Assembly (NCBI GenBank): GCA_014378485.1
Contig: JACMNO010000088.1
Span: 1-64,000, forward strand
DNA length: 64,000 bases
DNA from: Bacteroidia bacterium
Lineage (GTDB): Bacteria > Bacteroidota > Bacteroidia > B-17B0 > Aurantibacillaceae
Direction of reading: 5' to 3'
Part shown: piece by piece, positions 21,004 through 63,700 of the stretch
Layout of the letters: every line of letters begins with the position of its first letter
How positions within the stretch are numbered: the first letter of the stretch is position 1
Program-made: the position numbers and the translations under genes
Notes under the pieces: model-generated
Databases searched by the model: none
What the model saw: only the letters and a program-made list of their open reading frames with translations
What the model was told of the DNA's origin: nothing

Positions 21004-21077
21004 GTCACTTCGAGCGGAGTCGAGAAGCAGCATCTCATGATACCCTGAATCTAACGCCAAGGCGTGACAGGGTGACA
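21004..21077. repeat. TCGAG-type palindromic repeat and nested hairpin
   Basis: CTTCGAG (21008-21014) and TCGAGAAG (20 bases on) form a short palindrome (GTCACTTCGAG motif, as in the repeats at 23899 and 31664). It is followed by a second structure in which ACCCTG (21042-21047) pairs with CAGGGT, with ACGCC/GGCGT nested inside. It fills the 137-base spacer between the convergent comF and nfu genes. No coding potential. Confidence 0.6.
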
Positions 21078-23456: not shown

Positions 23457-23571
23457 TTAAGGTGCCAATTTGGCACCTTAAAACATAAACCATTTTCCTA
23501 ATGTCACGAAAATGGTTTTTAAAATAATATTTCTTGCGAAAATTGGAGGTCACAATTTGTGACCTCCAATT
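23457..23571. repeat. Cluster of three perfect hairpins
   Basis: Three perfect stems follow each other: 11 bp around ATT (TTAAGGTGCCA, 23457-23481), 11 bp around a 10-base loop (AAACCATTTTC, 23487-23518), and 14 bp around ATT (AATTGGAGGTCACA, 23541-23571). The third lies inside the reading frame of the ORF6N relic. None is followed by a T-tract, so they are not terminators. A related CTCTGTG-type motif (inverted) lies at 23411-23435. Confidence 0.7.
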
Positions 23572-23891
23572 CTGATAAATTGGGATTGCGTTATGCTCCT
23601 TTTGCATTTACAGAACAAGGTGTGGCAATGCTATCTTCCATTCTGAAAAGTAAAAAGGCAATATCAATAAATATTCAGATCATCAGAATTTTCACCCGGA
23701 TGAGACAAATATTAATGGATAATACTGAGATACGTTTGGCCATAGAAAAATTAGAAAAGAAAACAGATAATAATTCAAAAAACATTGAAGTTGTTTTTCA
23801 GTATATCGATGAACTAACGGATAAAAAAGAATCACGCCAAGACGTGATTAAACCCCGGAAACAAATAGGGTATAAATTACCAAAAAAATAA
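23523..23891 (+). pseudogene. ORF6N-domain protein, N-terminally truncated relic
   Basis: The open frame after a stop at 23520 encodes an ENWRSQFVTSNSDKLGLRY segment followed by APFAFTEQGVAMLSSILKS, the second half of the ORF6N DNA-binding domain, then a coiled-coil tail (ILMDNTEIRLAIEKLEKK, NNSKNIEVVFQYIDEL) and a basic end (KPRKQIGYKLPKK). Intact family members start about 60 residues earlier with a winged-helix part; here that part is gone and there is no good start (a GTG at 23559 is possible). Such genes occur on phages and mobile elements and as solitary genes. Read as decayed, though a short product is not excluded. Confidence 0.65.
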
Positions 23892-23898
23892 AATCTTC

Positions 23899-23945
23899 GT
23901 CACTTCGAGTACATTTGCCTGTTCTTGCAAATGTTTATCGAGAAG
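23899..23945 (-). repeat. TCGAG hairpin repeat, solo copy
   Basis: On the minus strand CTTCTCGAT flank, then CATTTGC/GCAAATG stem with an 8-base loop, then TACTCGAAGTGAC. Same layout as the repeats around the GIY-YIG gene at 31.8 kb but with different, still complementary, stem bases. Confidence 0.65.
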
Positions 23946-23995
23946 TGTTCTCGACTATGCTCGAATTAACAGAATTTACTGACATTAGGAAAATG

Positions 23996-31578: not shown

Positions 31579-31587
31579 AATCAAAAA

Positions 31588-31711
31588 GTTCTCTATACTC
31601 ACGCCAGACGTGATTGTAAAGGGCAGGCAAAAATCACTCGAACAGACATCAAGTATATTGCTTGTCACATCGAGTAGAAAATCCTGCCTCTTTGGATTTT
31701 CGTATCGAGAT
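31588..31711. repeat. Inverted pair of TCGAG hairpin repeats
   Basis: One copy in plus orientation (31588-31647, GTTCTC..GCAAAAATCACTCGAACAGAC, with an inserted CACG/CGTG hairpin) is followed by a copy in minus orientation (31664-31711) whose stem is GAAAATCC/GGATTTTC instead of GATTTTTGC/GCAAAAATC. The two face each other with 16 bases between. Downstream of truB. Confidence 0.7.
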
Positions 31712-31740
31712 GCTATTAAAAAACACATTGATTTAAAGGA

Positions 31741-31790
31741 GTTCTCGATACAATTTTTGAAAAGAAGACGCAAAAATCACTCGAACTGAC
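31741..31790 (+). repeat. TCGAG repeat, left flank of GIY-YIG gene
   Basis: 50 bases from GTTCTCGATAC to CACTCGAACTGAC, 8 bases from the stop codon of the GIY-YIG gene. By eye about 42 of 50 positions match the right flank at 32110, in the same orientation; all differences sit in or near the hairpin loop. Confidence 0.75.
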
Positions 31791-31798
31791 CTCTTACA

Positions 31799-32095
31799 TT
31801 ACTTTTTAAATTTTTTCTTTGATAGGACTTTTAACAACTCAAAATCACCATTTATAAGGGCTTGCTTTTTTGCTTTGCTCCACTTCTTTATTTTAGTTTC
31901 CAATTCGAAAGCTAAATTAAAATCTGAAAACATTTCGTGAAAAACTAATTCAACTGGACGTCTCGTAAAAGTATATGATTCTTTATTAATTCCCTGATTG
32001 TGTTCTATCAGCCTTCTATCCAAATTATTAGTAACTCCTCTGTAATATGAGCCATCGCTGCATTTTAGAATATATAAGTAAATTACTTTATACAC
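31799..32095 (-). CDS. GIY-YIG nuclease family protein (small, YhbQ-like)
   Basis: About 98 residues if started at GTG 32095 (MYKVIYLYILKC); the frame stays open to a TTG at 32161, but those 22 extra residues would be encoded by the flanking repeat. Domain: YLYILKCSDGSYYRGVTNNLDRRLIEHNQG, where YLY and YRG stand for GIY and YIG and the Arg of NNLDRR is conserved, then RRPVELVFHE and an ELETKIKKWSKAKK segment with the likely metal-binding Glu. Such minimal nucleases are common, often multi-copy, in Bacteroidota. The gene is bracketed by 50-bp direct repeats. Confidence 0.85.
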   Translation of the reverse strand: MYKVIYLYILKCSDGSYYRGVTNNLDRRLIEHNQGINKESYTFTRRPVELVFHEMFSDFNLAFELETKIKKWSKAKKQALINGDFELLKVLSKKKFKK

Positions 32096-32109
32096 AAATT
32101 TTTTATATG

Positions 32110-32159
32110 GTTCTCGATACGATTTTTGCAGGAGACAGGCAAAAATCACTCGAACTGAC
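32110..32159 (+). repeat. TCGAG repeat, right flank of GIY-YIG gene
   Basis: 50 bases of the same form as 31741-31790. GATTTTTGC (32120-32128) pairs with GCAAAAATC (about 32139-32147), and the flanks carry CTCGATAC and CACTCGAA. It separates the GIY-YIG gene from dut by a few bases, and the upstream open frame of the nuclease runs through it. Confidence 0.75.
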
Positions 32160-32167
32160 AATACGTT

Positions 32168-39015: not shown

Positions 39016-39395
39016 GTCATGCTGAACTTGATTCAGCATCTCAATTAATAATTAATGAAACTAACAAACGCCTTTATATATATTATGTCTAATAAAAATT
39101 TAACGACATTTTATATAGGAGTAACAAATGATTTAGAAAGAAGAGTAAAAGAACACAAACTAGGTGTAGGATGCGAATTTACTAGTAAATATAAATTGAC
39201 GCATTTGGTCTATTATGAAATAATTAATGATATTAAAACAGCAATCGCGCGTGAAAAGCAATTAAAAAACTGGAGACGTCAATGGAAATTGGATCTGATA
39301 AAAGAATTAAATTCAGAAATGGTAGATTTAGCAATTGATTGGAACTAAAATAACAACCTACTAAGTTAGGGATGCTGAATCAAGTTCAGCATGAC
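39016..39395 (+). mobile_element. GIY-YIG element bounded by perfect 25-bp inverted repeats
   Basis: The left end (39016-39040, starting GTCATGCTGAACTTG) is the exact reverse complement of the right end (39371-39395). Each end is itself a hairpin: ATGCTGAA / TTCAGCAT around CTTGA. Between them lies only one gene, the GIY-YIG nuclease at 39055-39348. No target-site duplication is obvious. A 380-bp unit with terminal inverted repeats and a nuclease gene suggests a minimal mobile element; the right end may also help end transcription of the preceding gene. Confidence 0.6.
39055..39348 (+). CDS. GIY-YIG nuclease family protein (small, YhbQ-like)
   Basis: 97 residues. FIYIMSNKNLTTFYIGVTNDLERRVKEHKLG contains the IYI and YIG strands and the conserved Arg of ERR; YKLTHLVYYEIINDIKTAIAREKQLKNW carries the probable metal-binding Glu (REKQ). 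The GIY-YIG fold cuts DNA with one metal ion. The gene lies inside perfect inverted repeats and differs strongly from the other GIY-YIG gene at 31.8 kb, so the two did not arise by recent copying within this window. Confidence 0.88.
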   Translation: MKLTNAFIYIMSNKNLTTFYIGVTNDLERRVKEHKLGVGCEFTSKYKLTHLVYYEIINDIKTAIAREKQLKNWRRQWKLDLIKELNSEMVDLAIDWN

Positions 39396-63587: not shown

Positions 63588-63700
63588 GTCTGTTCGAGTG
63601 ATTTTTTGCCTGCTTCTTGCAAAAAATAGTATCGAGAACAGCTAAATAAACTTCTAGATACGAATTTGCACGATACACAAATTCTACTCGAAGGGACAGA
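63588..63700. repeat. Inverted pair of TCGAG hairpin repeats
   Basis: A copy in minus orientation (63588-63639, stem ATTTTTTGC/GCAAAAAAT) is followed after 15 bases by one in plus orientation (63655-63700, stem GAATTTG/CAAATTC). The outer ends GTCTGTTCGAG and CTCGAAGGGACAG face each other as imperfect inverted repeats, as in a MITE. No ORF inside. Upstream of the DUF4286 gene. Confidence 0.68.

Follow-up and report, generated by a model that had tools for sequence, protein, structure and literature searches.

Bacterial genomes commonly contain short palindromic repeats and, to our knowledge, how these are maintained outside RAYT systems is mostly unexplained. A 64-kb stretch of one Bacteroidia genome (the window; genome G000, 3.53 Mb in 117 contigs, 89% complete) poses this question in a concrete form: a gene for a small GIY-YIG nuclease lies between two hairpin repeats. 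Does the nuclease belong with these repeats, and could it be the enzyme that moves or maintains them, as a sequence-only reading of the window had proposed by analogy with REPIN/RAYT systems? The features that bear on the question are as follows (coordinates, strand, description).

21004..21025, +, short A-type REP, TCGAGCGGAGTCGAGA form
23899..23947, +, solitary A-type REP, not beside any GIY-YIG gene
31588..31647, -, degenerate A-type REP, with 60% identity to 31741-31790 over 31598-31647
31664..31711, +, A-type REP in inverted orientation, forming a REPIN-like inverted doublet with 31741-31790
31741..31790, -, A-type REP directly downstream of the P0001 gene, direct repeat of 32110-32159 (42/50), fold weak (z -0.5)
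31799..32095, -, small stand-alone GIY-YIG nuclease gene (protein P0001), 98 aa, GTG start
32110..32159, -, A-type REP hairpin directly upstream of the P0001 gene, in gene sense GTCAGTTCGAG..stem..TATCGAGAAC, fold z -3.6
39016..39040, +, C-type REP upstream of the clade C gene, GTCATGCTGAACTTGATTCAGCATC
39055..39348, +, second GIY-YIG gene, 97 aa, PF01541 61.6 bits, assigned to clade C by tree and sequence
39371..39395, -, C-type REP downstream of the clade C gene, inverted copy
63588..63639, +, solitary A-type REP

The two copies that bracket the first gene had been described as 50-bp direct repeats, and they are 84% identical (42/50), beginning 8 bases past the stop codon and 14 before the GTG start. 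The mismatches had been placed entirely in or near the hairpin loop; seven of the eight lie inside the loop or at its edge, but one, at repeat position 12, is in the stem. The two outer copies had both been called inverted. This holds for 31664-31711, which is inverted to the gene-flanking copies, whereas 31588-31647 has the same orientation as them, and the word is true of the outer copies relative to each other. In the sense of the P0001 gene the layout is REP> gene> REP> <REP, with the degenerate copy unmatched by our search pattern. DNA folding compared with dinucleotide shuffles was strong for the upstream hairpin (z -3.6 for 32110-32159), for 31588-31711 (z -3.8) and for 31664-31715 (z -2.9), and weak for both 31741-31790 and 31598-31650 (z -0.5). 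The regular expression for A-type repeats matched six times in the 64-kb window vs twice in 400 kb of other stretches, and none of 3000 random positions had such a repeat on both sides within 600 bp (22 had one on at least one side). A-type repeats are rare in G000, with 2 strict hits and 8 BLAST places besides the window query. A 110-aa ORF (23559-23891), with a weak flank repeat score of 16.5, lies directly before the solitary REP at 23899. The second GIY-YIG gene, at 39055-39348, had been overlooked; it is bracketed by a different, inverted hairpin, so that two genes 7 kb apart carry different repeat types (A at 31799-32095, C at 39055-39348).

P0001 matches the GIY-YIG family PF01541 (E 2.4e-17, 63.4 bits, cut-off 22.6), which is its sole Pfam match at E 0.001, with no Y1 transposase domain; a search of NCBIfam returned no family at E 0.001. 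Four residues are invariant in an alignment of 63 of the 90 sampled GIY-YIG proteins: Y18, R28 and E66, corresponding to the Tyr, Arg and Glu that we take to be the catalytic residues of the domain, and K77 (63/63 each). H32 is kept in 62 of the 63 and Y8 in all 55 filled rows. An AlphaFold model made without an alignment reached a mean pLDDT of 60 and was set aside. No intron was seen at the window gene. A phage-borne or plasmid-borne family was considered and rejected: P0001 matches 22 of 50,697 phage records, in none of which a single place covers 80% of the protein, and 8 of 72,556 plasmid records, three with an 80%-covering place, all at less than 60% identity. The ratio dN/dS was 0.04-0.14 in the 7 of 12 homologue pairs with measurable dS, most of them near saturation; one pair had a dS of 0.25 and a ratio of 0.14, and dS was saturated in the other five. 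Codon comparison thus shows purifying selection on the homologues compared.

Relatives of P0001 are widespread, with 126 matches in 46 of 60 related genomes. After removal of the 32 weakest matches and of four that are tandem or have very long frames, ninety were taken with their flanks, and 89 were scorable. For each gene, 250 bp upstream were locally aligned with 250 bp downstream in both orientations, and a score of at least 15, a threshold chosen after the controls were seen, was counted as positive. A repeat common to both flanks was found at 63 of the 89 genes vs 6 of 343 other genes, the latter being mechanical ORFs of at least 90 codons from the window and from twenty 20-kb stretches of related genomes (hand-chosen, on contigs of 15 genomes). 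Among controls matched for gap size (both intergenic gaps at least 100 bp), 2 of 50 were positive. The same result was obtained for 68 of 80 named loci from Flavobacteriia, other Bacteroidota and two Cloacimonadota; these are the best 80 of 114 and overlap the first set (L111 and L112 appear to be the G001 and G003 loci). Sampling across the phylum gave a match in 120 of 198 genomes, and of the 28 loci newly returned from those 120 genomes, 21 were positive. Far flanks of the same loci were negative (0/70 named, 0/26 phylum), and in the first set they scored at most 12.5 (77 loci, direct orientation only). Randomly paired flanks of different genomes had 99th percentiles of 15.9 (direct) and 17.3 (inverted) and maxima of 26.5 and 33, the high scores being, as we take it, same-clade flanks with common repeats. 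The expectation that such repeats would cluster at GIY-YIG relatives was thus borne out: other family members do carry them, and the REPIN/RAYT-like arrangement recurs at many genes. As to whether the repeats are equally dense elsewhere, they are sparse in the sampled stretches (the 2 A-type matches in 400 kb), although some genomes have more than 100 copies.

Positive genes comprise 52 of 72 in the clades with a REP type and 11 of 17 others, several of the latter with tRNA-tail repeats. Fourteen of 31 clade A genes score below 15, including those for identical proteins of G005 and G019; at two of the 14, an A-type REP is present on one side. No A-type REP was present within 600 bp at 6 of the 80 named loci. 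Other-clade GIY-YIG genes lie directly downstream of a same-strand tRNA gene (Met, Ala or Leu) at 8 of 14 scanned loci (L101, L102, L104, L105, L106, L070, L071 and L096, in G019, G012, G017, G003, G008, G026, G032 and G050). At several of these, judged by eye, the direct repeat resembles the tRNA 3' end plus terminator hairpin, as if entry was at tRNA tails. GIY-YIG genes may also be tandem or near-tandem, two to three per contig stretch (G006:C68 at L077, G037:C5 at L089, G210:C18 and G109:C31).

The GIY-YIG genes form clades in a tree, and the main clades each have their own repeat type.

A-type repeat: GTCAnnTCGAG..hairpin..TCGAGA
B-type repeat: GGTGGCTGAG..TCGAAGCCACC
C-type repeat: GTCAnnCTGAACTnGnTTCAGnnTC
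D-type repeat: GTCATTGCGA..GAAGCAATC

With clades assigned by hand from the tree and 83 of the 90 rows used (rows 42, 44, 59, 60, 62, 67 and 81 left out), a flank repeat was common to 259 of 645 same-clade pairs from different genomes and to 7 of 13 from one genome, and to 125 of 2684 different-clade pairs from different genomes and 4 of 61 from one genome. When clade labels were permuted within genomes, sharing had a mean of 17.7% and a maximum of 25.7%, vs 40.2% observed. Same-clade sharing between genomes was highest in D (0.96), followed by C (0.65), A (0.30), H (0.10) and F (0, from three rows); cross-clade sharing was seen between D and E (0.21 of pairs) and among some of the small clades G, H and I (0.10-0.50). 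In a table of clade against repeat type (70 rows), an own-type repeat was present at 17 of 31 A, 7 of 11 B, 9 of 11 C and 10 of 10 D loci, with 7 off-type entries over clades A-E. In G000 itself two genes go with the A-type repeat, and C-type and D-type genes likewise lie beside repeats of their own; two further small GIY-YIG genes were left out. It is therefore well supported, from these alignments, that repeat type follows the protein clade and not the genome, and the claim that the nuclease belongs with the repeats stands on the same ground. This clade specificity strongly suggests that each nuclease would recognise its own REP. That the nuclease moves the repeats, which had also been proposed, we infer with more reserve.

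What would be recognised may be a hairpin. Among 351 distinct A-type repeats read from the loci collected, the two variable outer positions match their pairing partners in 669 of 702 cells, whereas shuffles averaged 440 and never exceeded 472. Since 283 of the 351 have one of two pair types, the number of independent changes behind this covariation is smaller than the count suggests. Interiors of A-type repeats fold better than 95% of mononucleotide shuffles in 80 of 120 tested. TG follows TCGAG in 244 of the 351, and GTA precedes TCGAGA in 267, TCGAG and TCGAGA having been part of the search pattern. The counterpart of 31664-31711 at a gene-less site in G003 has as its sole difference a paired stem change (CC/GG to TT/AA). 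Taken together, comparison of the copies shows that the repeats keep covarying stems around a conserved core.

The repeats also have a preferred orientation. The nearest REPs point towards the gene (>gene<, GTCA outside) in 39 of 61 two-sided named loci, the commonest layout, and the direct layout at the window gene is a less common arrangement. In the two-sided loci of the first set, >gene< was found in 7 of 8 C, 4 of 5 D, 7 of 14 A and 1 of 4 B loci. Gene-less inverted doublets, among those listed, mostly have this same orientation. G029 has 135 strict A-type copies, many listed as +/- pairs 11-15 nt apart, with 0 matches to a reversed-pattern control. Among the close C-type doublets listed, all 35 have unlike arms by eye (the shuffle minimum of homotypic doublets was 4), and 28 of the 35 combine a GTCATG arm with a GTCACC arm; gene-bracketing C pairs have alike arms in 2 of the 4 listed. 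The unlike arms of doublets may serve to avoid a long perfect palindrome.

Gene and repeat were also compared genome by genome. C repeats were present in 8 of 8 genomes assigned a core clade C gene (9-138 copies) vs 14 of 52 others (Fisher p 1.2e-4), and D repeats in 10 of 10 genomes assigned a clade D gene (2-34 copies) vs 20 of 50 others (Fisher p 4e-4), p values that ignore kinship, by which this co-occurrence is confounded. In these counts only the 90 genes were clade-assigned, and clade C rows G056 and G037, with repeats of other sequence, were left out. Within the genus the association for C was weak in the Fisher test (p 0.08) but moderate by rank (p 0.015), and that for D had a p of 0.005 (rank). 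Two genomes have many repeats and no intact small gene. In G021 the D-type repeat occurs 54 times, and the PF01541 search returned a single frame of 608 aa, about the size of UvrC, and no small GIY-YIG gene; the gene may be lost or unassembled, or there may be another keeper. G015 carries 29 copies of the C-type repeat, and of small GIY-YIG frames it has just one broken fragment of 37 aa. Therefore REPs can outlive, or do without, the nuclease.

Two sites bear on the history of the unit, and the search for empty sites that had been proposed was successful in one case. G032 has REP-gene-REP (about 613 bp) where G026 has 29 bp, with flanks 98% identical on both sides. At this one site the left junction sequence has diverged and no target-site duplication was seen by eye; as the pair has no outgroup, gain and loss are not told apart. 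The other is the site of the window gene, between truB and dut, which is also gene-less in relatives. The gene dut adjoins truB in 8 of 20 same-genus genomes, and in the seven of these other than G000 a gene with a CxxCxxCC motif lies in between. That gene is missing at this place in G000 (window 31579-32167, compared with L208, L210, L211, L214, L217, L218 and L219). Inspection of the interval by eye found an A-type doublet next to dut in G003, an A-type pair in G012, placed similarly to the degenerate 31588-31647 copy of the window, and a D-type pair in G017; no REP was seen in G004, G006, G007 or G016. The window gene therefore occupies an interval in which some relatives carry REPs but not the gene.

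Several explanations could account for these associations. That they reflect chance, or a general clutter of intergenic repeats, is next to negligible. Clutter does exist, since 2 of 50 gap-matched control genes pass, but this compares with 63 of 89 and 68 of 80 GIY-YIG loci, and random positions were never bracketed (0/3000). The repeats may instead be moved by Y1 transposases of the RAYT family, with the GIY-YIG gene a passenger. Genes of the Y1_Tnp family are indeed present in 41 of 60 genomes, with four in G000. However, in a survey of the best locus only in each of 30 genomes (29 with a usable frame, 26 scored), A-D type repeats were found within 250 bp at 0 of 29 Y1 loci, 10 of the 26 scored loci carry other repeats of their own, and repeat type tracks the GIY-YIG clade, all of which makes a Y1 mover highly improbable. 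Some of the Y1 loci examined have their own repeats and none has one of types A-D, and thus these genomes seem to run two REP systems side by side. The Y1 genes flanked by their own repeats (L234, L235, L240, L242, L243, L245, L246, L248, L249 and L253) include some with plain palindromes, e.g., GGGCTTTAGCCCGT.

A third possibility is that the gene is cargo, captured by homologous recombination between REPs that an unknown agent has spread, with no specific recognition. The direct REPs around the window gene and the presence of REPs without the gene at that site in relatives would fit, but different-clade genes of one genome rarely share a flank repeat (4/61 pairs), which capture does not predict, and we consider cargo quite improbable. 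A housekeeping role deserves more weight. The Ssn protein of Neisseria, in 2025 work, is said to be a small single-strand-specific GIY-YIG protein with hundreds of dispersed cognate NTS repeats; it reportedly has many homologues with their own sequences, and at these NTS sites the nuclease reportedly controls recombination or transformation. By analogy, the nuclease may recognise REPs as single-strand sites and control recombination or transformation, while the REPs spread otherwise and the gene stays near them for regulation or by linkage. Clade-specific pairing, purifying selection and the persistence of REPs without the gene all fit such a role, whereas the presence/absence block, the bias towards the >gene< layout and the occurrence of several differing paralogues in one genome look selfish. 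We regard this explanation as unlikely, if well worth considering.

The reading that we prefer, to which we would give a probability of roughly 0.6, is a REPIN/RAYT-like system with a GIY-YIG nuclease in place of the Y1 transposase, in which the nuclease would recognise its own REP hairpin and gene plus repeats would form a minimal selfish unit. The dozens of repeats in genomes without an intact gene (G021 and G015) speak against it, as do the clade A genes whose flanks score below 15. While DNA is replicated, repaired or taken up, a REP may fold into a single-strand hairpin, which its nuclease may bind and at which it may cut; that the nuclease cuts and moves the repeats is what we infer from the arrangements described above. 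REP breaks could then be repaired from another REP-bearing copy, such that doublets or the gene would be copied between REP sites in a homing-like manner, and REP-gene-REP would so be the autonomous unit and REP doublets its miniature gene-less form. At the window, the gene and one REP may have joined an older REP cluster between truB and dut, which would have produced the direct repeats. A wider proposal, which we hold only tentatively and at somewhat below even odds, is that minimal mobile elements with a hairpin-specific GIY-YIG nuclease as their sole protein form a class of their own, with REP-giy-REP units as its autonomous members and REP doublets as non-autonomous derivatives, and that several Bacteroidota palindromes (GTCA..TCGAG, GTCATGCTGAAC.., GTCATTGCGAG..) are populations which such nucleases maintain and which evolved alongside REPIN/RAYT within the same genomes. 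Sequence alone is enough to match a repeat type with a nuclease clade, and so the question of which enzyme keeps a repeat is directly testable; one 98-aa enzyme and one hairpin would form the test system, with other-clade pairs of the same genome as controls. Our results suggest a second, transposase-free way for bacteria to keep and spread REP-type repeats, which, if true, would be a second enzymatic solution to REPIN maintenance, alongside Y1 transposases in one genome.

How does this system compare with those already known? Full-text literature searches returned nothing that links GIY-YIG to REP sequences in Bacteroidetes, to repetitive extragenic palindromes or to mobile inverted repeats in Bacteroidetes, and GIY-YIG combined with REPIN gave papers on restriction enzymes. 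The solved relatives of P0001 by sequence are the UPF0213 GIY-YIG structures 1ywl and 1zg2 (E 1.9e-11 and 1.2e-10), both entries named hypothetical proteins. In the sections of Bertels and Rainey (2011, PMC3116915) on which we draw, REPIN/RAYT systems have palindromic repeats near an enzyme gene, intergenic dispersed inverted doublets, and, in some genomes, several different enzymes that are each paired with a separate class of REP. Against that description, the present system is alike in that REPs flank the enzyme gene (63/89, 68/80 and 21/28), dispersed inverted doublets occur (A-type in G029, C-type in several genomes) and one genome may hold several distinct enzymes, each with its own repeat class. 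It is unlike in that the enzyme is a GIY-YIG nuclease, not a Y1 transposase, its repeats have other sequences, the gene and two inverted REPs around it often form a single unit, and the examined Y1 genes of the same genomes are without these repeats (0/29).

Two other kinds of element share part of the architecture. IS200/IS605 elements also have a gene between hairpin ends, but the unit described here has no TnpA Y1 transposase and its ends are mostly inverted to each other. GIY-YIG homing endonucleases of the I-TevI type are nuclease genes within a unit that spreads by cleavage and repair, as the present unit possibly could; unlike them, the presumed target is a dispersed repeat and not one allele. 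With Ssn/NTS, as reportedly described, the system has in common a small stand-alone GIY-YIG protein and cognate dispersed repeats near its gene. It differs from that description in its occurrence in Bacteroidota, in having several parallel clades per genome and long variable hairpins, and in its REPIN-like doublets and one presence/absence unit. Should the Ssn work prove to cover these homologues, the REPIN-like architecture, the presence/absence unit and the unlike arms would be what is new here.
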